A stretch of DNA of 64,000 nt, taken from the NCBI RefSeq assembly GCF_000597725.1, contig NZ_JFBL01000001.1:62001-126000 (forward strand). Direction: 5' to 3'. Below are positions 6,773-58,259 of the stretch, one piece after another. This stretch comes from Sulfurospirillum arcachonense DSM 9755. GTDB lineage: Bacteria > Campylobacterota > Campylobacteria > Campylobacterales > Sulfurospirillaceae. Position 1 is the first letter of the stretch, and each line of letters opens with the position of its first letter. A program made the translations under genes and the position numbers. The notes under the pieces are model-generated. The model saw only the letters and a list, made by a program, of their open reading frames with translations, had not been told where the DNA came from and made no database searches.

Positions 6773-8320
6773 TTATCTTACACAATCGAAGAAATAATCA
6801 GTTTCAGCAATACCTTTAGTTTCTTCATCGAGTTGATCAAGAACAGCATTTGTAATCCAAGTTAAAAGATTTAATGCGCCTTTATAACCACTGATAGAAT
6901 ATCTATGTAAGTGGTGTCTATCAAAGATAGGGAAACCTATACGGATAAGTGGAGTTCCTGTATCTCTGTAAAGCTCTTTACCATAAACATTACCAATCAT
7001 AAAATCAACTGGCTCAGTAAATAGTAAACTTCTTAGGTGCCATAAATCTTTATTTGCCCAGATTTGACACTCTTCGCTCCAAGCTGATTTTGAAAGGATT
7101 GCTTGCATATCATCTTTCCAGCCTTTTCTTGGTGCATTGTGGCAAAGTACGTGAGTTGGGATTCCACCCATCTCTACAATAAAACTCACAAGTCCAAGTA
7201 AGAAGTCAGGATCTCCAAAAAGTGCAAACTTTTTACCATGCATATAAGGATAACTATCTTGCATAGCATCAACAAGTTGTGCTCTTTGGTTTTGAAGCTC
7301 AAGAGGAACATCTTTACCAGTCAATTCACTTAGTTTCATAACAAATTCGTCAGTACCACCAAGACCTATTGGATTAGAAGTTGCATAACCTTGTTTCCAT
7401 TTATTCTTAATAGTTTTAGCAGTTTGGATAGTAGAATACTTTTGTAAAGATATTGTTGTACCAGCGTTGATTGCAGTTTTAGCATCTGCAAGCGTTGTAC
7501 CACCACTATATAGTTTGTACTCTCCAGCTCCAGTGTTCCATTGCTCTTCATGGTCACCTATCATTACAATTTTGTCACTAAACATTGCGCCGATTTCTTT
7601 TATCTCTTTTAGACTTCCAAGGTATGGTTCAAATCCTGGAATAATATTGATACGCTCAGCATCTTCTACTTTTTCTGCTCTTGGAGGATTAAGTTGCTCT
7701 AAAATCGACTTAATCATATTATCATAACCAGTTATATGACTACCAACAAAAGATGGAGTATGTGCATAAGTGATAGCTGTATTATCAAGCTCACCTTCTG
7801 CATTTTCAATAGCTCCTAAAACAAAAGCATTTAAATCATCACCGATAACTTCTGCCATACATGTAGTACTAACAGCAATCATCTCAGGCTTATAAAGAGC
7901 GTTACAGTTTCTAATACCATCTTTCATATTTGCAAGACCACCAAAAACCGCAGCTGATTCACTCATAGAATCACTTACACAAGGAGTTGGTTCTTTAAAG
8001 TGTCTTGTAAAATAACTTCTAAAGTATGCAACACAACCATGAGAGCCATGTACATAAGGCATAGTGTTTTCAAAACCAAGCCCAGCCATGATAGCTCCAA
8101 GAGGTTGACATGCTTTAGCAGGATTTACCGTGATAGCTTCTCTTTCTAAGTTCTTTTCACGATATTCCCATGACTTTGTCCACTCAGCTACTTCCTTCAC
8201 TTTTTCAGGATTAGTAGAGCCGTAGTTTCCTTCAAATTCTTTTTTATTTTTAAATACTTCTTGATATTCATCTTTTAAAAATAGTTTTTGTCCGTTTACA
8301 ATGTTTTCTACGTCTTGCAT
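6773..8320 (-). CDS. nifK: Nitrogenase molybdenum-iron protein beta chain NifK
   Basis: NifK is the beta subunit of dinitrogenase; with NifD it forms the alpha2-beta2 protein that reduces N2 and shares the P-cluster. The 515-residue chain contains the conserved NPAKACQPLGA segment, HGSHGCVAYFR and STTCMAEVIGDD, which supply the three beta-side P-cluster cysteines, and the C-terminal region containing FPIFDRHHLHR typical of molybdenum NifK. Its start is two bases from the nifD stop, so the two are coupled. Length is normal for the family. The gene is the last of the nifH-orf-nifD-nifK operon. Confidence 0.97.
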   Translation of the reverse strand: MQDVENIVNGQKLFLKDEYQEVFKNKKEFEGNYGSTNPEKVKEVAEWTKSWEYREKNLEREAITVNPAKACQPLGAIMAGLGFENTMPYVHGSHGCVAYFRSYFTRHFKEPTPCVSDSMSESAAVFGGLANMKDGIRNCNALYKPEMIAVSTTCMAEVIGDDLNAFVLGAIENAEGELDNTAITYAHTPSFVGSHITGYDNMIKSILEQLNPPRAEKVEDAERINIIPGFEPYLGSLKEIKEIGAMFSDKIVMIGDHEEQWNTGAGEYKLYSGGTTLADAKTAINAGTTISLQKYSTIQTAKTIKNKWKQGYATSNPIGLGGTDEFVMKLSELTGKDVPLELQNQRAQLVDAMQDSYPYMHGKKFALFGDPDFLLGLVSFIVEMGGIPTHVLCHNAPRKGWKDDMQAILSKSAWSEECQIWANKDLWHLRSLLFTEPVDFMIGNVYGKELYRDTGTPLIRIGFPIFDRHHLHRYSISGYKGALNLLTWITNAVLDQLDEETKGIAETDYFFDCVR

Positions 8321-8321
8321 A

Positions 8322-9791
8322 TTACGCTCCTACTTCTTCAGTTTTTTCCCATGGTGCTTTTGTATGACTCCATACAGGAGAATTTAAAGCTAAATCCATA
8401 TCTTTTGCAAAAATTGCAAATGCGTCATATCCATGATAAGGACCACTATAATCCCATGAGTGCATTTGTCTAAAAGGAAGTCCCATCTTTTGGAATACAT
8501 ACTTCTCTTTTACACCTGATGCAACTAAATCTGGCTTTAGTTTTTGAACAAACTTTTCAAGTTCATATTCATTAACATCATCATAAATAAGAGTTGAACG
8601 CTCAATTTCGTCTTTAGTTCTTTTATAATCATCACCATGACCAAATTCATATCCTGTACCGATTATTTCCATACCAAGATCTTCATAAGCACCAATAACG
8701 TGACGGGGTCTAAGTCCACCAACATAAAGCATTACTTTTTTGCCTTCTAGTTTTGACTTATACTTAGCGATTACTTCATCTGTCATTTTTGTATATTTTG
8801 CGATAACAGCTTCTGTTTTTTCTTGAATCTCTGGTCCAAAAAACTCAGCGATTTTTCTTAAACTTTCTGTTGTTTTTGAAGGTCCAAAAAAGTTATATTC
8901 CATCCAAGGCACACCAAATTCTTGTTCCATGTGTCTACTAATATAGTTCATTGAACGGTAACAGTGAAGAAGGTTAAGCTTTGCTTTAGGTGCAATTGCT
9001 AACTCTTTATAAGTAGCATCACCACTCCATTGAGCAATAACTCTAAGACCCATCTCTTCAAGTAATATTCTTGAACTCCAAGCATCACCACCGATGTTAT
9101 AATCACCAATAATAGCTACATCATACTCAGTACTATCAAAATCTTTTCTGGCACTAGCATCTGGCATAACTTCATCACGAATCATATCATTTGCAATATG
9201 GTGACCCAAAGACTGAGACACACCACGGAAACCTTCACAAGAAACAGCAATAGTTGGTTTAGAACTATCTGCTTTATGTTTTTTAGCAACAGCTTGAATA
9301 TCATCACCAATTAGACCAATCGGACATTCTGATTGAACAGATATACCATTGTTTAAAGGAAATAGCTCATCAATCTCTTCTAAAGCTTTTTTTAGTTTTT
9401 TATCTCCACCAAATACAATATCTTTTTCTCCAAAATCTGTAGAAAAGTTCATTGTTACAAAAGTGTCAATTCCTGTAGTTCCTATATAATAGTTTCTACG
9501 ACCAGCACGGCTATATTGTCCACATCCTATTGGTCCATGAGAAATATGAATCATATCTTTAATAGGACCCCAAACAACACCTTTACTTCCAGCATAGGCA
9601 CAACCACGTTGGCTCATTACCCCTGGAACTGTTTGCTTGTTACTTCTTGTAGAATCACAAGCACCTTTTACACCATCAGGAGTATCAACGCCTAAGTGTT
9701 TCGCTCTATTTTTAGCAGCTTTTGCAGGGTATGCTTTTAATACCTCTTCAATAGCTTCATTCTGTAAATTTTCTAATGTTTCTGGTCCCAT
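8322..9791 (-). CDS. nifD: Nitrogenase molybdenum-iron protein alpha chain NifD
   Basis: NifD carries the FeMo-cofactor. The cofactor ligands are present: the cysteine in [11 protein letters not shown] and the histidine in [10 protein letters not shown]. The alpha-side P-cluster cysteines appear in [18 protein letters not shown] and [11 protein letters not shown]. The valine, glutamine and histidine that shape the substrate pocket (GSKGVVWG and SQSLGHH) are also kept. These mark a molybdenum enzyme rather than the vanadium or iron-only types. At 489 residues the length is standard. It follows the unknown gene at 9820-10176 by 28 bases and overlaps nothing. Confidence 0.97.
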
Positions 9792-9819: not shown

Positions 9820-10176
9820 TTAAGCTACTTTTACTCTATATAGATTCATGTCATCTAGTTTTCTACATAAATCTTTTGTTACATCACCATCAGCTACTTT
9901 TGAGATTTCACTAATTTGATATTTATTTGTAAAATAAACCATTTTAGTATCTCCTTCAATATCTGCTGTATTAAAATAATCTACAAATGCTTTATGAGCA
10001 AAAGTTCCCGCAGGTACTTCAAGTTCAACTACAACTTCACCTTTAGCAGTTTCACCTGTTAAACTTACAGTTTTACCTGCTGTATCTCCAACACTTGTTT
10101 CTACTTTTTCAATAACTTTATCAAAACTAACATCATTTCCTTCACTTGCTGGGAAGTGGTATCCACATATAAACAT
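9820..10176 (-). CDS. Unknown 118-residue protein encoded between nifH and nifD
   Basis: The frame is intact, has a ribosome-binding site (AGGAG) ahead of the ATG at 10176 and lies on the same strand inside the nifH operon, so it is very likely expressed with nitrogenase. The product is acidic and looks strand-rich, with alternating hydrophobic residues through [20 protein letters not shown] and a C-terminal helix. It contains only two cysteines (C4 near the start, and one in KDLCRK), so it is not a ferredoxin. It does not resemble the PII-like NifI proteins that occupy this position in archaea and clostridia, nor the delta subunits AnfG/VnfG. I do not recognise a family and assign no function. 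Confidence 0.75.
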
Positions 10177-10216
10177 ATTATTCTCCTACAATATTTTTCA
10201 TTTAATTATTTTCTTA

Positions 10217-10291: not shown

Positions 10292-11242
<951 letters not shown>

Positions 11243-47729: not shown

Positions 47730-49006
47730 AATTATTATTGAAGATTTTTATAACACTCTTTATTTCAATAACATCTTCATTTTTTATTTACTCAGTAATT
47801 ATACTCAATACTACAAAAACTGATTTGGAAGAGAAACTAATTCAAAAGATTAAAAACAATAATAAACTCTATACTATACCTATTTCTGCTTTACTATATG
47901 AGTTTAACGAAGATGTTCTAATCTCATTATTGCATTCTATTTATAACGATAAAGAAATCGTAAAAATAGAACTCATAGATTTTAGTAATAATCTAAATTT
48001 AACATTAAATAAAGGTGAATTTAATGCGGATGACATAATAAAAGATAAACTTGAATTAAAATATGCTAATGAGAAAATAGGTATTTTGAAAGTCTCTTAC
48101 ACAAAAAAATATATAAATATTTTCTTTAACCAATTTAAAAACTATGCTATTTTATTTAGTGTATTGTTAGTATTTATTCTCCTTATCTCCCTTTATTTTA
48201 TAATCAAACAAATCATAAAATCTCTCGATATTTTGTCAAAGGCAACAGAAAAAATTACTTCTGGAAACTTACATCACAAAATCAACATCAAATCAAATGA
48301 TGAAATTGGTTTATTGGCAAATAAATTTGAAACTATGAGAGAAAACTTACACAATAGAGAAGTATTAAATAAACAGCAGTCAGAAAAAATACAAGAACTC
48401 AATAAAGAGATGATTGAAACACAAGAAGTATTAATTGAGACACTAGGCGAAGTAATAGAAAAAAGATACATTGATGATCCTTATCATGTTAAAAGAGTAG
48501 CTGATATGTCTTATCTTTTAGCAAAATTATTAGGGATGAAAGAGAGTGAAGCAATAAGCTTAAAAATTGTTTCTCCTATGCATGATATTGGTAAAATTGG
48601 TATTTCAGACTCCATACTCCTTAAACCTGGAAAGTTAACCCCTGAAGAATTTGAGATTATGAAAACTCATTCTACAATAGGTTATGATATTCTAAAAGAT
48701 ACACATAAAGAAACACTTGACATTGCTTCTTTAGTCGCATATGAACACCATGAAAGATGGAATGGTACAGGATATCCTATGGGTAAAAAAGGTGAAGAAA
48801 TCTCTATCTTTGGAAGAATCACTGCTATTATAGATGTCTTTGATGCTCTTGCAAATAAAAGGTGTTATAAAGAAGCTTGGCAATATGATGAAATCATTAC
48901 GTACTTGAAAAAAGAGCGTGGAGAACAATTTGACCCAATAATTGCTCAAAAATTAATTGACAATATAGATATTTTTATAGATGTACAAAAAAAGTATTCT
49001 ACTTAG
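47726..49006 (+). CDS. Membrane-bound HD-GYP phosphodiesterase with HAMP domain
   Basis: The 426-residue protein has a membrane helix (about 7-28), a small periplasmic domain, a second helix (about 139-160), HAMP (about 160-212), a coiled coil and a C-terminal HD-GYP domain. The domain contains MHDIGKIG, KTHSTIGYDIL, YEHHERWNGTGYP and DVFDALANKRCYK. Complete HD and GYP motifs predict hydrolysis of cyclic di-GMP. It is co-translated with the solute-binding-like protein, which likely tunes its activity. Confidence 0.9.
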   Translation: MKLLLKIFITLFISITSSFFIYSVIILNTTKTDLEEKLIQKIKNNNKLYTIPISALLYEFNEDVLISLLHSIYNDKEIVKIELIDFSNNLNLTLNKGEFNADDIIKDKLELKYANEKIGILKVSYTKKYINIFFNQFKNYAILFSVLLVFILLISLYFIIKQIIKSLDILSKATEKITSGNLHHKINIKSNDEIGLLANKFETMRENLHNREVLNKQQSEKIQELNKEMIETQEVLIETLGEVIEKRYIDDPYHVKRVADMSYLLAKLLGMKESEAISLKIVSPMHDIGKIGISDSILLKPGKLTPEEFEIMKTHSTIGYDILKDTHKETLDIASLVAYEHHERWNGTGYPMGKKGEEISIFGRITAIIDVFDALANKRCYKEAWQYDEIITYLKKERGEQFDPIIAQKLIDNIDIFIDVQKKYST

Positions 49007-49350
49007 CCAAGTAATTCTCTTTGTTTTTTAGGAAGCTTATTATAGATAAGCTCATACGAATGGTCAATGAGTTCTTTTAAAAGTGAGTCAGTTACATCGG
49101 TATTTGCACTGACTGTATTCCAGTGTTTTTTGTTCATATGATATCCTGCTTTTATACCCTCATAGATTGAGCGAAGTTCTAAGGCGTAGATAGGATCACA
49201 TTTAAGATTTATATGAAGTAGCTCTTCATCTACAAAAAGAGCAAACATCTTGTTAGAAACTCTGTAAACACGTACTACCTCATCAAAAGGATAATCAAAC
49301 GTAGCTCCTTTTTTTGACAACAAGTAAACATCTACCTCTTTAAAAGTCAT
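49003..49350 (-). CDS. MmcQ/YjbR family protein
   Basis: The 115-residue protein matches the YjbR fold. It has FDYPFDEVVRVYRVSNKMFALF at the start, LHINLKCDPIYALELRSIYEGIKAGYHMNKKHWNTV in the middle and a final DHSYELIYNKLPKK helix. Members adopt a CyaY-like fold and may bind DNA, but no cellular role is settled. It ends convergently with the HD-GYP gene, overlapping four bases. A copy of CTTTACATGTAAAG (49362-49375) lies just upstream of its start. Confidence 0.85.
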   Translation of the reverse strand: MTFKEVDVYLLSKKGATFDYPFDEVVRVYRVSNKMFALFVDEELLHINLKCDPIYALELRSIYEGIKAGYHMNKKHWNTVSANTDVTDSLLKELIDHSYELIYNKLPKKQRELLG

Positions 49351-49416
49351 AACTCAATGTCCTTTACATGTAAAGTATTTTCTCTATAATATCATAAAAG
49401 AAGATATGTTTTTGAG

Positions 49417-49746
49417 TTAAACTCTACATGCCCAACAGTTATCTTGGTCATTACATGTAGCACAAGCTGGGGCAACTTCTCCTACTGAGTCATAGATAAA
49501 TTTTTTCCAAAGTTTATCAGCAGGTTTTATTTCACACAATGCTGGGAAATGCTCTTTCATAAACTTCCCCATTTGAGTTCTATTTTCAAAACCTAAATCT
49601 TCATAAAGATGATTCATCTCTAAAGAAACTTTTGAAAGATATGGTGCAACTTCATTAAAAGCTTTTTCATCTTTTGCATACTTTTGTAAAAATGAAGTTA
49701 CTTTCTCTTCTAAAATATTAAGTGGCGTTTCATTTTTTACTATCAT
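49417..49746 (-). CDS. nifQ: Short NifQ-like protein with altered cysteine motif
   Basis: NifQ supplies molybdenum for FeMo-cofactor. The 109-residue protein has the NifQ pattern MNHLYEDLGFENRTQMGKFMKEHFPAL followed by LWKKFIY and a cysteine-rich end. Classic NifQ is 160-190 residues and ends in C-x4-C-x2-C-x5-C. Here the first cysteine is missing and an extra one is added at the tail, giving C95, C98, C104 and C107 (C-x2-C-x5-C-x2-C). The N-terminal third of longer NifQ proteins is absent. It overlaps the flavodiiron gene by four bases and ends the operon that begins at 52745. The NifQ assignment is from motif memory and is fairly strong. Confidence 0.75.
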   Translation of the reverse strand: MIVKNETPLNILEEKVTSFLQKYAKDEKAFNEVAPYLSKVSLEMNHLYEDLGFENRTQMGKFMKEHFPALCEIKPADKLWKKFIYDSVGEVAPACATCNDQDNCWACRV

Positions 49747-50960
49747 AAAGTCATCTCCATCATTTTACCATTTACAATTTCGCCAAACTCTACACCAAAA
49801 TTGTAACTCTCATTGAGTTCCATTTTTGTAGGTACAAGCTTTATCTTTTGTGGTTCAAGTGGTACTCTAAACTTCAAAGCTTTCAATCTTGCTTGAATCA
49901 TATCAACAGCTTCTCCACTCCAACCAAAACTACCAAAACATGCACCTATTTTACCTTTTTTTTCTAAAAGCATCATACAACTTAACAAATCCCAGACAGG
50001 TTTAGGAGCATCTGAATTGATAGTTGGCGTTCCTATAATTATACCTGTACTTTCTTCTAAAATACTGAGCATATTTTGCTCATCTAATGCCATAAGGTCA
50101 TATATATTTGCTATGAGAGTTTCACTTGATTCTAATCCATCATAAATTCTCTCAGCCATATCTTTTGTATTTTTATAACTTGTTACATAAAAAATAGATA
50201 CTATTTTTTTACCATGCAGTCTATCTGTTTTAGTACTCCATTTTTTATACAACTCTATATATTCATGTGGATTTTTTCTTAAAACTGGTCCATGAAGTGT
50301 TGCTACGATATCAATATCTAACTTTTCATACAGTTTTATTGCATTGATAACATCACTTTTAAAAGGTCTCATTATATGCTCATAATAGTATTTAAAAGCA
50401 TATTCAAAGTCACCAACTAAATCATTAAATACCCTACTATCAAAATAGTGTGATCCAAAAACATCACCACTAAAAAGTACTTTCTCTTCTACAAGGTAGC
50501 TACTCATCGTCTCAGGCCAATGAAGATTTGGCGTACTTAAAAATTTTAGTGTTTTATCCCCAAGTTTTAACTCTTTATTGGTCCAAACATTTTCAAACTC
50601 TATATCTTCTTTTCCTGTTATTGCTTTTATCATAGGTCCAGCCATAGGCGATATAAAAACTTTTGCCTGAGGTGCTTTTTTAGTCAATTCTAAAAGTGCT
50701 CCACTATGATCAGGTTCAAGATGATGCATCACGATATATTTTATCTCTTCATACCTACAAACTGACTCTATATTTTCAAAAAACTCTTGTGAAAACTCTT
50801 CTTTCACAGTATCTAAGATAATAACTCCTTGCGTAGTCTTAACAAGATATGCATTATACGTAGTTCCATTGGCTGTTTTCATAATAATATCAAAAGTTCT
50901 GATATCAGGATCACTGACCCCTATATAATAAACATCTCTTTTGATTTTTACGGCACTCAT
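49743..50960 (-). CDS. Flavodiiron protein (A-type flavoprotein, FprA/NorV-like)
   Basis: The protein (405 residues from the ATG at 50960) has a metallo-beta-lactamase-like diiron domain with HHLEPDHSGAL, LHWPETMSSYLVEE and LFSGDVFGSHYFD, and a C-terminal flavodoxin domain (from about 255; SIFYVTSYKNTKDMAERI). Such proteins reduce O2 or NO to harmless products, so in a nif operon it may protect nitrogenase from oxygen. The start at 50960 is preferred over 50993 because AAGGA precedes it and it shares a base with the upstream stop (TGATG). Electron donors are not encoded beside it except the ferredoxins of the plus-strand nif genes. Confidence 0.9.
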   Translation of the reverse strand: MSAVKIKRDVYYIGVSDPDIRTFDIIMKTANGTTYNAYLVKTTQGVIILDTVKEEFSQEFFENIESVCRYEEIKYIVMHHLEPDHSGALLELTKKAPQAKVFISPMAGPMIKAITGKEDIEFENVWTNKELKLGDKTLKFLSTPNLHWPETMSSYLVEEKVLFSGDVFGSHYFDSRVFNDLVGDFEYAFKYYYEHIMRPFKSDVINAIKLYEKLDIDIVATLHGPVLRKNPHEYIELYKKWSTKTDRLHGKKIVSIFYVTSYKNTKDMAERIYDGLESSETLIANIYDLMALDEQNMLSILEESTGIIIGTPTINSDAPKPVWDLLSCMMLLEKKGKIGACFGSFGWSGEAVDMIQARLKALKFRVPLEPQKIKLVPTKMELNESYNFGVEFGEIVNGKMMEMTL

Positions 50961-51322
50961 CAATGTTTCCTTAAAAGAATTCTCTGCAGCCATAAAGGTG
51001 GGTTATCTTTTATCATATTTTGTAGAGATTTTAAGACACCTTCTATCGTATCATCACTTGACTTCATAGGATATATACCACATTTTTGAACTAGATTTGC
51101 TGCTTTTGGTCCTATCTGAGAGACACATACCATATCACTATTTTCAAGACAATTTATCTTATACTCTAGCTTATCTATCTCATCATCATGTTTTATAGAA
51201 GAGTCAATCTCTTTGATTAAAGAAAAATCATTTTCATTGACCTCATACATGTAAAACCTTTCACACCATCCAAAGTGTTCATTTACATTTATGCCATCAA
51301 GTGAAGCAAATGAAATTATCAT
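50960..51322 (-). CDS. NifX/NifB-C-like cofactor-binding protein (first)
   Basis: The 120-residue protein matches the dinitrogenase iron-molybdenum cofactor family: FASLDGINVNEHFGWCERFYMYEV at the start, SQIGPKAANLVQKCGIYPMK in the middle and a C-terminal NPPLWLQRIL helix. Members carry FeMo-cofactor precursors between assembly proteins. It shares its C-terminal helix (NPPxxxxxIL) with the NifX at 55519. It overlaps the Sel1/NifU-like gene by four bases. Confidence 0.85.
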   Translation of the reverse strand: MIISFASLDGINVNEHFGWCERFYMYEVNENDFSLIKEIDSSIKHDDEIDKLEYKINCLENSDMVCVSQIGPKAANLVQKCGIYPMKSSDDTIEGVLKSLQNMIKDNPPLWLQRILLRKH

Positions 51323-52056
51323 ATGATATAAACCTTGATATTTTCATCTATAACTTTAGTAAGCGTATTTTCGATAAGCTCATATGTAGAAGTAGAAGCC
51401 ATAGAACATCCCGCACAATTTCCTTGATATGCAAGTCTTATCTCAGTATCTACTCCACTTAAAAAATCAATCAACATAATATTCCCACCATCTTGAACTA
51501 AAATAGGTCTTATATATCTATCTAAGGCATCAGTCACTACTTCTTTTTTCTTTTCTAAACTCATTTTTTTAAACTCCAGATTTATATTTGGACTCTCTTT
51601 TTTTGGTCTATCCACACCACCCATCTGAATTCTAGCCATAGCATGACCACTCTTTGCAGCATTAAGCATACAGTTAAATCCTTCTTTTACTAAAACCTCA
51701 TTTGTTCTATCTTTAAGTAAAAGTAATCCCAATCTAAAATTAGCCCCTTGATGGTTTTTTTTAACAGCACGTCTAAAATATTCTATTGCTTTATTTATAT
51801 CTTCATCAACACCAATTTTACTCTGGTACATTAAAGCAAGATTATAATTAGCAGAATCATTTTCAAACTCACTCGCTTTTTCAAACCACTCTTTTGCTTT
51901 TGCATAATCTTTATCAACACCCTCACCTTTTAAGTACATAAGACCTAAATTTGCCATAGCTTGATCGCTTTTTAACTCTGCTTCTTTACTCCACAAACTA
52001 AAAGCACTTTCATAGTCTTTTGCCTTATACGCTTTTAATGCTTCTGCATGATTCAT
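51319..52056 (-). CDS. Sel1-repeat protein fused to a NifU C-terminal-like domain
   Basis: Residues from the start to about 155 form Sel1-type helical repeats (AMANLGLMYLKGEGVDKDYAKAKEWFEKA and following). The last about 75 residues form a NifU C-terminal-like scaffold domain (RPILVQDGGNIMLIDF, then YQGNCAGCSMAS with the CxxC cluster site). NifU-type domains hold iron-sulfur clusters for transfer. The repeats may dock a client. The ATG at 52056 is chosen because AGGAG precedes it. This domain pairing is unfamiliar to me and it may stand in for part of the missing NifU. Confidence 0.8.
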   Translation of the reverse strand: MNHAEALKAYKAKDYESAFSLWSKEAELKSDQAMANLGLMYLKGEGVDKDYAKAKEWFEKASEFENDSANYNLALMYQSKIGVDEDINKAIEYFRRAVKKNHQGANFRLGLLLLKDRTNEVLVKEGFNCMLNAAKSGHAMARIQMGGVDRPKKESPNINLEFKKMSLEKKKEVVTDALDRYIRPILVQDGGNIMLIDFLSGVDTEIRLAYQGNCAGCSMASTSTYELIENTLTKVIDENIKVYII

Positions 52057-52067
52057 ATTGTGCTCCT

Positions 52068-52370
52068 CTAACAACACTCTAATTCTGCTTTATCTAAAAG
52101 AGATATTCCTTTTTCAAAATCAAACTCTTCAAATAAATCAGAAATATAAAATACATTTGAGCAAACAAGATACAATATATCTTTACACCCATCCTTAATA
52201 TACTCTTTACTATAATTTTCAGGAATCTTACTTTGAAAACTTATCCAAAATTCATTCTTGCTTTCAGGCTCTAAAAGAAAAAGCTCATCCATAGCATCTA
52301 AAACTTCAACTGCATTTTTATAACAATCTATATTATCAAATGATACATATCTATCTCTTACTTCTTGCAC
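52068..52370 (-). CDS. cowN: CowN, nitrogenase-protecting protein against CO
   Basis: The 100-residue protein matches CowN: DRYVSFDNIDCYKNAVEVL near the start, NEFWISFQSKI in the middle, DLFEEFDFEKGISLLDKAE and the closing ECC. CowN lets cells fix nitrogen when carbon monoxide is present by shielding the Mo nitrogenase. Translation starts at GTG with AAGG about ten bases upstream. The gene abuts the NifX-like gene and is followed by the Sel1/NifU-like gene. Confidence 0.88.
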   Translation of the reverse strand: MQEVRDRYVSFDNIDCYKNAVEVLDAMDELFLLEPESKNEFWISFQSKIPENYSKEYIKDGCKDILYLVCSNVFYISDLFEEFDFEKGISLLDKAELECC

Positions 52371-52745
52371 CTACTCACCTTTACAAGAACAACTACACTC
52401 ATCTGTTAATTCTGTATAATTACTTTCATCAACAAGTAAAAGTGACTCACTCAAAAAATCTTTATATATAGCGTCAATAGTAGGTTTTTCATCTTTACAT
52501 GTAAAGACTTTTATACCCTCTTTTGTATAATATTTATAAAGCTTATCTCCCATATGTGAAAACACTGTTGCACTTGTACCAGATTGCTTTAAAAATGGAA
52601 CTAACTGAGGACCATTACCACACTCTTCATTTTTAATAACTTTAAAAGCACCAGATTCAATATCTAAAAGTGCAAAATACGGAGCATTACCATATAAATC
52701 AGATAAAGTTGTGGAACTTTTTGTATCTAGGGGAATTGAAATCAT
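52371..52745 (-). CDS. NifX/NifB-C-like protein (second)
   Basis: The 124-residue protein resembles the cofactor-binding NifX/NifB C-terminal family (FALLDIESGAFKVIKNEE, ATVFSHMGDKLYKYYTKEGIKVF), with a cysteine-rich end ECSCSCKGE that could bind a metal or cluster. It is the first gene of the minus-strand nif operon. It carries one copy of CTTTACATGTAAAG inside its coding sequence (52493-52506). Its exact role in cofactor handling is not known. Confidence 0.8.
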   Translation of the reverse strand: MISIPLDTKSSTTLSDLYGNAPYFALLDIESGAFKVIKNEECGNGPQLVPFLKQSGTSATVFSHMGDKLYKYYTKEGIKVFTCKDEKPTIDAIYKDFLSESLLLVDESNYTELTDECSCSCKGE

Positions 52746-52778
52746 TTATAATCCTTTTACTTTATTTATATTTATATA

Positions 52779-52793
52779 TACATAATCCATTCC
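52779..52793 (-). promoter_or_regulatory. RpoN-type promoter of the minus-strand nifX-like/cowN/nifQ operon
   Basis: On the minus strand the element is GGAATGGATTATGTA. It keeps the -24 GGAA and the -12 TATGTA but differs in the middle from the other four sites. The GG is 48 bases from the ATG at 52745, in line with the others. Confidence 0.65.
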
Positions 52794-52808
52794 TTTTACA
52801 TTTTTAAA

Positions 52809-52823
52809 GGAACACTTTATGTA
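52809..52823 (+). promoter_or_regulatory. RpoN promoter of nifE
   Basis: GGAACACTTTATGTA matches the nifH and nifX elements. The GG is 44 bases from the nifE ATG. It lies back-to-back with the promoter at 52779-52793, the two GG pairs being 16 bases apart. Confidence 0.85.
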
Positions 52824-52852
52824 AATAAATCATATATATGTAAGGAAGTACT

Positions 52853-54208
52853 ATGATGGTAAATAAAAAACAGATTAAAGAACTTTTAAACGAATCAGCT
52901 TGCTCTCATAACAGTGAGAAAAAAAGTAGTTGTGACAAACCAAAACCTGGAGCGACAAGTGGTGGTTGTGCTTTTGAAGGAGCACAAATATCTCTTTTCC
53001 CTTATGCAGATGTTATCCACTTAGTTCACGCACCTGCAACCTGTCAGGGTGCTTCTTGGGAAACTCGTGCTACTAAAACTAGTTTTAGTGGTATTGATAA
53101 CACCCCTCTTGGATACTGTACAGATGTAAGCACAAATGACATCATTTTTGGTGGAAGTCAAAAACTAGAAGATAGTATAAGCTATATTGTCAAAAATAAA
53201 AGACCAAAAGCCATTTTTGTATATGAAACCTGTGTCACTGCAATGATAGGTGATGATATGGATAGCCTTGCAAAAAGACTTCAAGAAAAGTATAAAACTA
53301 TCATAATAGTAATCCACTCTCCTGGTTTTGTAGGTAGCAAAAACTTAGGCTCACGTTTAGGGGGAGAAGCTGTACTAGACCAACTCATAGGAACAAAAGA
53401 GCCCAAAGAGATACATCCATATGGTATAAACCTTATAGGAGAATATAACGTTACAGGAGACATGTGGCAATACTCTCCAATTTTAGAAAAAATAGGTATC
53501 AAAATTATCTCTACACTTGCTGGAGATGGAAGATTAGAGCGTATCCAACAAGCACACCGAGCAAAGCTTAATGTCATAGTTTGTGCAAAATCACTCATAA
53601 CACTTTGCAGAAAAATGGAGGAAAAATATGGAATTCCTCATGTATCTGTCTCTTTTTATGGGAAACGAGATACTAGTAATGCTATTAGAACCATAGTCAA
53701 TGCTTTTAACGATAAAGAGCTAAGTGCAAAAGCTGAAATTATTATCAAAGAAGAAGAAGAAAAACTTGAATCAAAACTTGTACCATTTAGAAAAATTTTA
53801 GAAAATAAAAAAGCTATTCTTAATACTGGTGGAAACAAATCATGGTCAATAGCCTCAGCCCTTCAAGATATCGGGATAGAAGTAGTTGCAACAAGCGTAA
53901 GAAAAGCTACTTTAGAAGATATAGAAATAGCTAAAAAATATGTACCTATTTTGATGAAAGTTCCAGCAAATGAACAAGCAAAACTCATAGATGAACATGG
54001 AGTTGATATACTCTTAGCAGGAGGAAGAAGTCTCTATACTGCTATTAAAAAAAGGGTTGCCTTTGTAGATGTAAACCAAGAGAAAAAAATAAGCTATGGG
54101 GCTTACAACGGACTTGTTAACTTGGCATCCGATGTTTGTAACTCTGTAAACAATCCTGTATTTAAAGTTGTAGGAACAAAAGCACCTTGGGAGAAAGATA
54201 ATGACTAA
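52853..54208 (+). CDS. nifE: FeMo-cofactor scaffold protein NifE
   Basis: NifE forms with NifN the scaffold on which the FeMo-cofactor precursor matures. The 451-residue protein has GGCAFEGAQISLFPYADVIHLVHAPATCQGASWETRA and the VYETCVTAMIGDDMDSL segment that hold the NifD-like cluster cysteines. It lacks the cofactor histidine region of NifD. The end overlaps nifN by eight bases. The start ATG (first of two) is preceded by AAGGA. Confidence 0.95.
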   Translation: MMVNKKQIKELLNESACSHNSEKKSSCDKPKPGATSGGCAFEGAQISLFPYADVIHLVHAPATCQGASWETRATKTSFSGIDNTPLGYCTDVSTNDIIFGGSQKLEDSISYIVKNKRPKAIFVYETCVTAMIGDDMDSLAKRLQEKYKTIIIVIHSPGFVGSKNLGSRLGGEAVLDQLIGTKEPKEIHPYGINLIGEYNVTGDMWQYSPILEKIGIKIISTLAGDGRLERIQQAHRAKLNVIVCAKSLITLCRKMEEKYGIPHVSVSFYGKRDTSNAIRTIVNAFNDKELSAKAEIIIKEEEEKLESKLVPFRKILENKKAILNTGGNKSWSIASALQDIGIEVVATSVRKATLEDIEIAKKYVPILMKVPANEQAKLIDEHGVDILLAGGRSLYTAIKKRVAFVDVNQEKKISYGAYNGLVNLASDVCNSVNNPVFKVVGTKAPWEKDND

Positions 54209-55463
54209 ACCACTTCAAATAAATCCACTCAAACTTTCCCAACCTATGGGCGCATTACTTGCTTTTTTAGGCATTAAAAATACTATGCCTTTAATGCATG
54301 GGGCACAAGGTTGTGCTAGTTTTTCTAAAGTCTTTTTTACTCGACATTTTAACGACCCAATAGCAGTACAAACAACAGCAGTCAATGATATAACAGCTAT
54401 TGTTGATGGGGGTGATTACTCTATTAGTGAAGCGGTAAAAAACATAACAAAAAAAGTAAAACCTGATTTAGTTGGTCTGTTTACAACTGGACTTACTGAA
54501 ACAAAAGGCGATGATATAAAAGGTGCAGCGTATCTTTTAAAAGATACTCAAAAAATGGTTTACGTTCATACTCCTGATTTTGAAGGTGGTTTGGAAAGTG
54601 GTTTTGCAAAAGCAATCGAAGCTATCATAGAACAACTTGTTGAACCTCAAAACAATATAGATGAAAGAAAAGCTCTTCTCATACCAAATGTAAATATGAC
54701 TCCTATTGAGATTGAAAAGCTTAAAGAACAAATATCTCTTTTTGGCTTTGAGCCTTTTGCTCTTCCAGATTTAAGTGACTCACTAGATGGTCATCTAGGC
54801 TTAAAACAAGGTGCCCTATCATCTGGTGGTATAAGTATTGAAGAGATTAAAAAGTTAGCTGAGTGTGCATTAGTCATAAGTGTAGGCAACTCTGTTGAAA
54901 AATGTGCCCAAATGATGAAAGAAAAAAATCCATCTCTAACACATCTTCATTTCGATTCTCTTGGAGGACTAAGTAATAGTGATAAATTTTACAAAGCACT
55001 ATTGGAGTTCAAACATATAGATACTCCTTCTCCATCAATTGTAAGATGGAGAAAAAGGCTACAAGATGCCTTACTTGATACTCACTTTGCTATTGGCGGT
55101 GCTAATGTGATTGTTGCATTAGAACCTGATCAAATCCTTTCAGTAGTTTCTACAATAACTGAAGCTGGGGCCAATGTCAAAACTGTTATTTCTCCAACAA
55201 AAAGTAGTGCCTTAGATACTCTTACATGTAAAGTTATTATAGGTGATTTTGAGGATGTAGAAAATGAACTTGAACAAAATGACTTACTCATAAGTAATTT
55301 TCATGGTGAAAGACTTACAAAAAAACACAATAAAGCATTGATGCTAAGAGGATTTCCTAATTATGAAGGACTAGGCTACCAACTTAAAAATGACTTTTTA
55401 TATGAAGGAAGCACTTATTTGCTTTTTGAAATTGCAAATATATTAGAACATTACAAACATTAA
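54201..55463 (+). CDS. nifN: FeMo-cofactor scaffold protein NifN
   Basis: The 420-residue partner of NifE has the NPLKLSQPMGALLAFLGIKNTMPLMHGAQGCASF opening that mirrors NifK, the FFTRHFNDPI segment and a short middle. It is closer to NifK than to NifE, as is usual. It is not fused to nifB, which is missing here. It contains the palindrome TTACATGTAA at 55223-55232. The coupling with nifE ensures equal amounts. Confidence 0.95.
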   Translation: MTKPLQINPLKLSQPMGALLAFLGIKNTMPLMHGAQGCASFSKVFFTRHFNDPIAVQTTAVNDITAIVDGGDYSISEAVKNITKKVKPDLVGLFTTGLTETKGDDIKGAAYLLKDTQKMVYVHTPDFEGGLESGFAKAIEAIIEQLVEPQNNIDERKALLIPNVNMTPIEIEKLKEQISLFGFEPFALPDLSDSLDGHLGLKQGALSSGGISIEEIKKLAECALVISVGNSVEKCAQMMKEKNPSLTHLHFDSLGGLSNSDKFYKALLEFKHIDTPSPSIVRWRKRLQDALLDTHFAIGGANVIVALEPDQILSVVSTITEAGANVKTVISPTKSSALDTLTCKVIIGDFEDVENELEQNDLLISNFHGERLTKKHNKALMLRGFPNYEGLGYQLKNDFLYEGSTYLLFEIANILEHYKH

Positions 55464-55471
55464 ATCTCTAT

Positions 55472-55486
55472 GGAACACTTTATGAA
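55472..55486 (+). promoter_or_regulatory. RpoN promoter of the nifX operon
   Basis: GGAACACTTTATGAA lies eight bases after the nifN stop, with its GG 47 bases from the nifX ATG. It allows nifX-DUF269-nifF-nifW-nifZ to be expressed more strongly than nifEN. Confidence 0.82.
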
Positions 55487-55518
55487 TATTAATACTCATA
55501 TCAAATAAAAGGATAACA

Positions 55519-55917
55519 ATGAGCTCTACAATTAAAATCAACACTAACTCTTCAAATGAAGGGAGTATCAAAGTTGCTTTTGCTACAAATGACAATGAAA
55601 ACATAGACGCTCATTTTGGAAGCGCTAAACAATTTAATATCTATGAAATATCAGCTCAATCATATGAGCTTTGTGAAATCATAAAAATAGAAGAAAAAGA
55701 TACAGACAAAACTGTAGGACTACTAAAAGGTATGGATATAGTTTATTTTGTAAATATCGGTGCTGCTGCAGCTGCAAAAATCATAAACTCGGGTATATTT
55801 CCTATTAAGTATAAAGAAGTTGTAAGTATTGATGAAGAATTAAACAAACTAGTCAAGATGTTAGGACAAAACCCTCCACCTTTTATTAAAAAAATTCTAG
55901 AAAAAAGAGCTGCATAA
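55519..55917 (+). CDS. nifX: FeMo-cofactor carrier NifX
   Basis: NifX carries the cofactor precursor VK-cluster between NifB and NifEN. The 132-residue protein has KVAFATNDNENIDAHFGSAKQFNIYEIS, the strand DIVYFVNIGAAAAAKIINSGIFPIK and the final NPPPFIKKIL helix. It follows nifEN, as in many diazotrophs, and is the best candidate for the orthodox NifX among the three related proteins in this window. Its stop overlaps the next start. Confidence 0.9.
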   Translation: MSSTIKINTNSSNEGSIKVAFATNDNENIDAHFGSAKQFNIYEISAQSYELCEIIKIEEKDTDKTVGLLKGMDIVYFVNIGAAAAAKIINSGIFPIKYKEVVSIDEELNKLVKMLGQNPPPFIKKILEKRAA

Positions 55918-56339
55918 TGAAAAATTTATTTATAGAGACTCTTATCTCACAAGTAAGAGCACTTGACCAATTTGGTACATGGGCAAACAAAAGTGATGAA
56001 GAAATACTAACAGAAAAATATGTAAAATCAAAAGAAGACTTGAAAAACATTCCTGTAATCGCTGATATTGATGAGATGCAAACTCAAGACATAAGACTTA
56101 TATATCAAGCAATTGCTTTGGCATTTGAAAAACAAACGGGAATTATGTGTTCTGTAATTATGGAGATGAGTCATGAAGGATTTGGTCGAGCTGTTGTAAT
56201 AGCTGACAAAATTGTCATAACAAATAAATTTTTTAAAGATGCTCACCGTTTTTCTTTTAGAACATATGAAAAACTTATTGAAGAAGGCGATAAACTTTTA
56301 TCTAACGCTATAAAAATTTATGATGAGTATAAAAAATAA
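55917..56339 (+). CDS. NifX-associated protein, DUF269 family
   Basis: The 140-residue protein belongs to the NifX-associated DUF269 family: FIETLISQVRALDQFGTWANKSDEEILTEKYV at the start and GFGRAVVIADKIVITNKFFKDAHRFSF in the middle. It has no known enzyme motif. Members are found almost only beside nifX in diazotrophs and are thought to help cofactor assembly. It overlaps nifX by one base. Confidence 0.92.
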   Translation: MKNLFIETLISQVRALDQFGTWANKSDEEILTEKYVKSKEDLKNIPVIADIDEMQTQDIRLIYQAIALAFEKQTGIMCSVIMEMSHEGFGRAVVIADKIVITNKFFKDAHRFSFRTYEKLIEEGDKLLSNAIKIYDEYKK

Positions 56340-56351
56340 AGGGGTAACAAA

Positions 56352-56858
56352 ATGAATATTGGAATATTTTGTGGAACTGCTGGTGGAACTTCGTTAAAAG
56401 TAGCTGATGCACTTGCAGAAGCATTTGATGTAGAAGAAGTCATAAATATGGAAGAAGATTTTGATGATATAGACCAACTATTAGAATATGATGTTCTATT
56501 TTTAGGTAGTTCTACTTGGGGACAAGGTGATGTTCATCATGAATGGGTAGATCCTCTTTTTGAGATAGACTCAGATGAAATTGATTTTTCAGGTAAAAAA
56601 GTAGCATTTTTTGGAGCAGGAGACAGTGTCAAACATGGTGAACACTTCTGTAGTGCTATTGGAAAAATGTATCAAACTTTTTCAAAAGCAGGAGCAACAC
56701 CAATAGGCTTTATCCCAAAAGATGATTACTCATATGAATTTTCATTGGCTGAAATTGATGATAAATTGTGTGGTCTTGCCATAGATGAACATAATGAATC
56801 AGATAAAACTCAAACAAGAATTGAAAACTGGATTGAGACTCTAAAGTCTGAACTATAA
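56352..56858 (+). CDS. nifF: Flavodoxin, nitrogenase electron donor NifF
   Basis: NifF carries electrons to NifH. The 168-residue protein has the FMN phosphate loop FCGTAGGTSLKVADAL, the LFLGSSTWGQGDVHHEW ring contact and the KVAFFGAGDSVKHGEHFCSAIG loop, matching long-chain bacterial flavodoxins. Position in the nifX operon supports NifF. The gene is spaced 12 bases from the preceding stop. Confidence 0.92.
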   Translation: MNIGIFCGTAGGTSLKVADALAEAFDVEEVINMEEDFDDIDQLLEYDVLFLGSSTWGQGDVHHEWVDPLFEIDSDEIDFSGKKVAFFGAGDSVKHGEHFCSAIGKMYQTFSKAGATPIGFIPKDDYSYEFSLAEIDDKLCGLAIDEHNESDKTQTRIENWIETLKSEL

Positions 56859-56867
56859 GGATATAAA

Positions 56868-57206
56868 ATGAATTCTAAAGAACAATTAAATGACTTTTAC
56901 AAACTTAGTGATGCTGAAGATTATTTTGATTTTTTCAAACTTGAGTACGATGAAAAACTTGTAAATGTAAAACGTTTTCATATCTTAAGAGAATACGGAA
57001 ATCTTATAAAAACTGGATTAGAAAACTTAAAAGATCAAGAAGATAAATTACTTGATTTTTTAAAATTTTCTCTATTGCAGGTCTATGGTAACTTTAAAAA
57101 TGGTTATGCACCAAGTGCTGCAGAAGTTTGGAATATGTTTAAAGATGGAAAAGCAACAGGATGTTTAGGTTGTATCCCATCACCAGGAAATAGTTGTGGT
57201 TGTTGA
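56868..57206 (+). CDS. nifW: Nitrogenase-stabilising protein NifW with cysteine-rich tail
   Basis: NifW helps protect dinitrogenase from oxygen. The 112-residue protein has the NifW core (LSDAEDYFDFFKLEYDEKLVNVKRFHILREYG and LLQVYGNFKNGYAPSAAEVWNMFK). The end is a cysteine-rich tail, GCLGC followed after eight residues by CGC. I do not recall such a tail from classic NifW, and it may bind a metal or cluster. The stop overlaps the start of nifZ. Confidence 0.88.
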   Translation: MNSKEQLNDFYKLSDAEDYFDFFKLEYDEKLVNVKRFHILREYGNLIKTGLENLKDQEDKLLDFLKFSLLQVYGNFKNGYAPSAAEVWNMFKDGKATGCLGCIPSPGNSCGC

Positions 57207-57573
57207 TCCAAATACAAAATTGTATGACTCAGTAACAGCAACTAGGTCAGGTCGGGATGAAGATGAGCCTAAATTTAAATTAGGTCAAAAAGTAGAACTA
57301 TTAGAAAATGTTGTCAATGATGGCACCTATCCTCACTCAAAAATTGGTGAGTTAATGATGGAAAAAGGCTCCACTGGTTACATCAAAGATATGGGCGATT
57401 TTTTGCAAGTTATTAGAGTATATGAAGTACATTTTTTTGGTTGTGGAAAAGAAGTTGAAATCATAGGATGTAGAGAGCATGAACTTAAAGCATTAGAAGA
57501 TGGTGATTTAGCTGATGCAACTGAGGGTGAACTTTTTAAAAAAATTATAGAACAAAAAAGAAAAAATAAATAA
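57196..57573 (+). CDS. nifZ: NifZ, P-cluster maturation protein
   Basis: NifZ assists formation of the second P-cluster of the MoFe protein. The 125-residue protein shows the family motif FKLGQKVELLENVVNDGTYPHSKIGELMMEKGSTGYIKDMGDFLQVIRVYEVHFF. It starts with GTG at 57196, overlapping nifW by 11 bases, and has no separate ribosome-binding site, implying coupling. A C-terminal acidic helix follows. Confidence 0.9.
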   Translation: MVVDPNTKLYDSVTATRSGRDEDEPKFKLGQKVELLENVVNDGTYPHSKIGELMMEKGSTGYIKDMGDFLQVIRVYEVHFFGCGKEVEIIGCREHELKALEDGDLADATEGELFKKIIEQKRKNK

Positions 57574-57607
57574 AACGGTTACCAAAAACAAATTAAAAGG
57601 AGAAAAT

Positions 57608-57949
57608 ATGGCAAAAGTTATTTTTATGCATTTTGATGAAAATACAGATGGTATTTACGATGCAAAGATAGGAGAGCCTCTTGTAAGATTGGCTAAGGAA
57701 AAAGGAGTACCTGTAAATACTTCAAGTGCTGATAAGTATAAAAGTTGTCTTGTTAGTGTTGAGCATATCGCAGATGAAGAGCCTACAAGCTACATGGAAG
57801 ATGAAGAATTAGATTTATTGGTTGAGCTTGGTGCTATTAGTGAGGAAGATGCTGAACAGTGCCAACAATACACAATTAGTCCAAAAATTAGAATTGCTCC
57901 AATGATGCTTATCAAAGGCGATGTTCTAATAAAACCATATAAAATATAA
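57608..57949 (+). CDS. Ferredoxin-fold protein lacking two of four cluster ligands
   Basis: The 113-residue protein resembles 2Fe-2S ferredoxins in length and strand order. Cysteines C47 and C85 align with the third and fourth ligands of the next gene's ferredoxin, keeping the same 38-residue spacing. The other two ligand positions are S39 and Y44. A normal 2Fe-2S cluster is therefore unlikely. It is preceded by AAGGAG and begins the last part of the plus-strand nif run. Its place beside a true ferredoxin suggests a paralog with a new role such as a regulator or partner. Confidence 0.8.
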   Translation: MAKVIFMHFDENTDGIYDAKIGEPLVRLAKEKGVPVNTSSADKYKSCLVSVEHIADEEPTSYMEDEELDLLVELGAISEEDAEQCQQYTISPKIRIAPMMLIKGDVLIKPYKI

Positions 57950-57962
57950 TAAAAGGAATAAA

Positions 57963-58259
57963 ATGACAACTAGAGTAGAAATAGTAAATGATTTTTTAGC
58001 TATCAATGTTAAAGAAGGTGCAACAATCCAAGATATCGTTGAAGCAAGTGGTAGTGCTCTTCCTTTTGGATGTAGAGATGGTGAATGTGGTACATGTGTT
58101 GTTGAAGTAGTTCAAGGCATGGAATTTTTATCTGACAAAACAGATAAAGAAGTAAAAGTTTTAAAAGAAATCGCTGCAGGAACTTGTACTCCAAACTCAC
58201 GTCTTTCATGTCAAATGAAAATAGCTAAACCAAATGGAATAGTTAGATTAAAATACTAA
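57963..58259 (+). CDS. 2Fe-2S ferredoxin, nif-linked
   Basis: The 98-residue ferredoxin has the plant-type cluster motif C37-x4-C42-x2-C45 and C83 in RLSCQ, with the VPEGATIQD-like opening strand. It is likely an electron carrier for nitrogenase or for cofactor assembly (FdxB-like). It is 13 bases after the ligand-deficient paralog. A hairpin at 58281-58318 follows its stop. Confidence 0.9.
   Translation: MTTRVEIVNDFLAINVKEGATIQDIVEASGSALPFGCRDGECGTCVVEVVQGMEFLSDKTDKEVKVLKEIAAGTCTPNSRLSCQMKIAKPNGIVRLKY

Follow-up and report, generated by a model that had tools for sequence, protein, structure and literature searches.

Nitrogenase gene sets attract intensive study with a view to the engineering of nitrogen fixation, and the Campylobacterota include important diazotrophs of sediments and vents. 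In methanogens, clostridia and Desulfovibrio, the slot between nifH and nifD is occupied by the genes of NifI1 and NifI2, which belong to the PII family. The FeSII (Shethna) protein holds a [2Fe-2S] cluster through four cysteine ligands. Other auxiliary components include NafY, NifX and NifY, accessory proteins of nif clusters with a PF02579 domain, and the delta subunit AnfG/VnfG, which is encoded inside a structural operon. Precedents for small nitrogenase helpers are CowN, a CO-protection protein that interacts directly with nitrogenase (PMC8047169), and orf1 of the Paenibacillus nif cluster, which supports fixation at high O2 (PMC6429469).

The locus described here has a further gene, which we call X, between nifH and nifD. 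It lies in a stretch of 64,000 nucleotides from Sulfurospirillum arcachonense DSM 9755, which was analysed as a whole and is referred to as the window. X appears to be a gene of the structural operon itself; it is retained with essentially all Mo-nitrogenases of the X type that were surveyed in the Campylobacterota, and is unnamed in family libraries. It resembles Paenibacillus orf1 in being a lineage-restricted ORF of a nif cluster; orf1 is placed after nifENX, and the likeness is one of context. No gene in the nifH-nifD gap is mentioned in the available passages of open-access papers on Campylobacterota nif genes, the part of the literature that was covered, and X may have been noted elsewhere.

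The nifH-X-nifD-nifK locus

The gene order at the locus is nifH-X-nifD-nifK (Table 1). A reading of the DNA made from its sequence only had placed a 118-residue protein in the nifH/nifD gap, which is borne out by the ATG start, the GGAG motif ahead of it and the identification of the flanking nif genes with family models. The protein is acidic (pI 4.7, 13.0 kDa), is encoded once in the window's own genome and carries the motifs MF(I/V)(C/L)GxHFPAxxGN, TN(K/R)YQ(I/M)(S/A)E(I/L)SK and LCKxxDxM. It has two cysteines, Cys4 and Cys104, the first of which is replaced by Leu or Met in one subfamily. We infer that nifHXDK is co-transcribed as an operon. A hairpin in the nifH-X intergenic region was below significance (z −0.94), and sigma-54 sites sought by consensus showed no excess over chance.

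Table 1 Features of the window that are discussed in the text
Feature	Position	Strand	Basis or setting
nifK, MoFe protein beta chain	6773..8320	−	TIGR01286, 745 bits
nifD, MoFe protein alpha chain	8322..9791	−	TIGR01282, 823 bits (cut-off 654)
X, protein of 118 aa	9820..10176	−	ORF with ATG start; between nifH and nifD
Ribosome-binding motif GGAG	10177..10190	−	From sequence; directly upstream of X
nifH, nitrogenase Fe protein, 304 aa	10292..11206	−	TIGR01287, 426 bits (cut-off 394)
12-residue insertion in NifH (about residues 86-97)	10916..10951	−	NifH alignments
CowN, nitrogenase CO-protection protein	52068-52370	−	Second nif cluster; adjoins nifE

The slot between nifH and nifD had been described as usually empty or filled by NifI, in agreement with what we find in other genera: nothing lies there in Methylococcus, Paraburkholderia, Rahnella and Rhizobium, and Desulfovibrio has two PII genes at this place. 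In one Campylobacterota genome without X (G007, locus L083), nifD is divergent (645 bits), and the slot contains two genes matching PII models (NifI-like), as in Desulfovibrio; this genome carries a different nif lineage. No NifI gene was found near X in any of the locus records checked, and the PII copies of the window genome are located elsewhere, one of them adjoining an amtB-like gene.

This arrangement raises the alternative that X is a post-translational switch-off regulator replacing NifI1/NifI2, which, on a change in ammonium or energy status, would bind either NifDK or NifH and block electron transfer. X fills the NifI slot and is similar in size, the genome with PII-type genes in the slot has no X, and both the lack of NifI near X loci and the separate position of the PII copies fit such a role. 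However, NifI is encoded by two genes and X by one, and hhalign of X against six PII/NifI sequences gave a probability of about 0.1%. In addition, X has no Pfam or NCBIfam match to a PF00543-type PII signature, no PII structure is among its top Foldseek matches, and no effector-binding motif was seen in it. We consider a switch-off function possible but doubtful.

Distribution of X

The direct scan of GTDB used short, exact peptide patterns and one genome per species, and may miss distant relatives because of the patterns. It returned 31 loci, with 51-78% identity, nearly all in records named Campylobacterota, and in 31 of 31 X is between nifH and nifD. A profile of X was then applied to 397 genomes of the Campylobacterota, the phylum to which this survey is confined, with nifD called when its score exceeded the TIGR01282 cut-off. 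The profile matched in 74 genomes, including a hit taken as chance (G065; E 0.008, 16.7 bits, within a frame of 828 residues) and a decaying operon (G223). In the latter (locus L081) a truncated nifH frame runs into X and a partial nifD adjoins, apparently through decay of the nif operon.

X is located beside nifD in 72 of the 73 surveyed genomes with nifD above the cut-off; in the remaining one (G389) nifD is at a contig end. It is absent from the 322 Campylobacterota genomes of the survey that lack Mo-nifD. The 87 locus records, overlapping ones included, all show X in single copy and on the strand of nifD, with a median gap of 33 nt to nifD and 105 nt to nifH. Plasmids and phages were also searched for X, and none was found. 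Homologues outside nif operons, which by the sequence-only reading would have counted against a nitrogenase role, were not seen within the Campylobacterota, where relatives of X occur only beside nifD, that is, only with nitrogenase, as for accessory proteins of this enzyme. Strict co-occurrence and co-location with Mo-nitrogenase across the phylum strongly support a direct role of X with this enzyme, and X is almost certainly a helper or controller dedicated to it.

Selection and co-inheritance

The dN/dS of X has a median of 0.13 (93 pairs), compared with 0.05-0.06 for NifH, NifD and NifK. X is under purifying selection and evolves faster than the three structural proteins. Together with the relatives in 31 other genomes, this value establishes X as a genuine gene and not a chance ORF. 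The distances between X sequences correlate with those of NifD and NifK (0.89-0.90), and the partial distance correlation is highest for the X-NifH pair (0.40 versus 0.23 and 0.32), which slightly favours NifH. Two subfamilies of X can be distinguished (Cys4 versus Leu/Met4), and the NifHDK tree divides at the same deep node. The X and NifHDK trees have 16 of 45 bipartitions in common, compared with at most 2 in shuffles; both place the window with L001 and L005, with weak support at the innermost nodes.

The faster evolution of X, and an association that rests on perhaps one origin, could be read as X being a passenger gene, linked to nifHDK by common ancestry only. This reading is hard to hold, because X is kept under purifying selection only where the operon is present: it is retained in essentially all surveyed nif genomes, from several families, and in none without the operon. 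We regard a passenger as very improbable.

A NifH insertion that accompanies X

Alignments of NifH revealed an insertion of 9-12 residues in 82 of 82 NifH proteins encoded with X, and in none of the 7 encoded without it. It is placed just before Cys100, which aligns with Cys85 of Azotobacter vinelandii, and is absent from the solved NifH structures that were aligned. No other large indel in NifH, NifD or NifK separates the X-encoding from the X-less set. The length of the insertion tends to follow the subfamily of X, being 12 residues in A and 9 in B; at least two loci depart from this, L013 with 11 residues and L068 with 12. The association of X with the insertion is a suggestive lead and not proof, since each may have arisen once and shared ancestry could then account for it.

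Family identity and predicted fold

Searches of Pfam, NCBIfam and PDB sequences gave no credible match, either for X of the window or for the X profile, in keeping with the earlier view that it has no recognisable family. Weak Pfam and NCBIfam matches (TQ, Mso1 and others) were taken as chance because they were inconsistent between members and below the cut-offs, and matches to PDB sequences (protein G) were likewise attributed to chance. Two AlphaFold2 (AF2) models of X (pLDDT 83.9 and 86.0; pTM 0.78 and 0.81) predict an alpha/beta fold of the approximate order b-a-b-b-a-b-a-b. The fold prediction that had been suggested thus delivered a fold, but one that remains an orphan: Foldseek found no PDB match below E 0.001 for either model, and the viral structures of BFVD gave only weak matches, none below the same threshold. 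The N-terminal domain of DapD was matched by the second model alone (E 0.009, TM 0.48), and we did not take this as meaningful.

The N-terminal motif is the most conserved part of X and the least confidently modelled (pLDDT about 63), as it might be if it became ordered on a partner. We found no signature of catalysis, nucleotide binding or metal binding in X. A metal site formed by Cys4, His7 and Cys104 was considered but given up, as Cys4 lacks conservation and neither His7 nor Cys104 is invariant. An FeSII (Shethna) protein was also rejected, X having only two cysteines, of which Cys4 is not conserved.

Alternative nitrogenases

A second, alternative nitrogenase alpha gene is present in three sampled genomes (L100 in G205, L101 in G117 and L102 in G208). 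The family scan of L102 identified anfDGK, in which AnfG is a delta subunit of 117 aa (173 bits) unrelated to X. The X profile has no match in the three sampled alternative clusters, and the same genomes have X beside nifD. As for the Fe protein, none of the three clusters contains a gene of its own. The alternative (Fe-only) enzyme probably shares the NifH of nifHXDK, whose gene is the only one for NifH in each of these genomes.

The near-identical size of X and AnfG of L102 (118 versus 117 aa), and their positions inside structural operons, are compatible with X being a stoichiometric extra subunit of the MoFe protein, analogous to AnfG/VnfG. Yet X matches neither delta subunit model (TIGR02929, TIGR02930), is lacking from the anf clusters searched with its profile, and has a predicted alpha/beta fold, in contrast to the alpha-helical delta subunit (PMC8047169). 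Such a subunit role appears quite unlikely.

Proposed role of X

The explanation that we favour, with some confidence, is that X is a dedicated accessory protein that binds nitrogenase, with NifH as the first-choice partner, and either stabilises or protects the enzyme or gates it. X would be made from the nifHXDK operon and bind nitrogenase directly, docking at or near the lineage-specific NifH loop, an insertion that closely precedes the cluster-ligand segment. Most probably it would stabilise or protect the enzyme, or gate electron transfer reversibly, in bacteria without NifI in the nif structural operon. We infer the physical binding, the choice of NifH and the protection or gating. A direct role with nitrogenase, as a regulator, protector or assembly factor, had been anticipated; co-occurrence and co-location strongly support the direct role, for which each of the three is a candidate. 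The main rivals of our explanation are a NifI-like switch and an assembly factor. Our confidence in this general class overlaps with that in the specific modes of action, which are not mutually exclusive.

More tentatively, X and the NifH loop might form a co-evolved pair, X being a regulator or protector specific to the Campylobacterota that binds the Fe protein, takes the place of NifI-type control and may steer the single NifH in genomes with both MoFe and FeFe enzymes; we regard this as possible, not as likely. The matching loop offers an immediate, testable docking hypothesis for X, and a small protector or gater of Mo-nitrogenase, if confirmed, would be of practical use.

Other genes of the nif clusters

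X and CowN are both small auxiliary proteins dedicated to nitrogenase, but their sequences are unrelated (no PF20543 or NF033689 match in X) and both are encoded in the window genome. Of the 75 nif genomes surveyed, 49 have CowN, whereas X is present in essentially all. X is not a simple replacement of CowN or of NifW, because all occur in the same genomes (for NifW, in the window). A search for DraT in the 75 genomes gave no match, and neither did the control for this search.

An assembly or maturation factor, similar to NafY or NifW, would hold apo-NifDK or NifH during cluster insertion. X is small, acidic, strictly tied to the Mo enzyme and encoded with its would-be client, as could be expected of such a factor. 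The window, however, already encodes NifX, a NifX-associated protein, NifW and further NifX-like proteins, and X and the NifX domain have no detectable common profile: hhalign against four paralogues gave a probability of 0.2, and the five PF02579 matches of the window genome are all separate from X. An assembly function for X seems to us possible but doubtful, and an accessory protein that probably acts on NifH is the reading that we retain.

The second nif cluster of the window (49003-58259) comprises nifE, nifN, nifX, the gene of the NifX-associated protein, a flavodoxin, nifW and a ferredoxin. It also contains small unassigned ORFs, for example at 57196-57573, 57608-57949 and 49417-49746.
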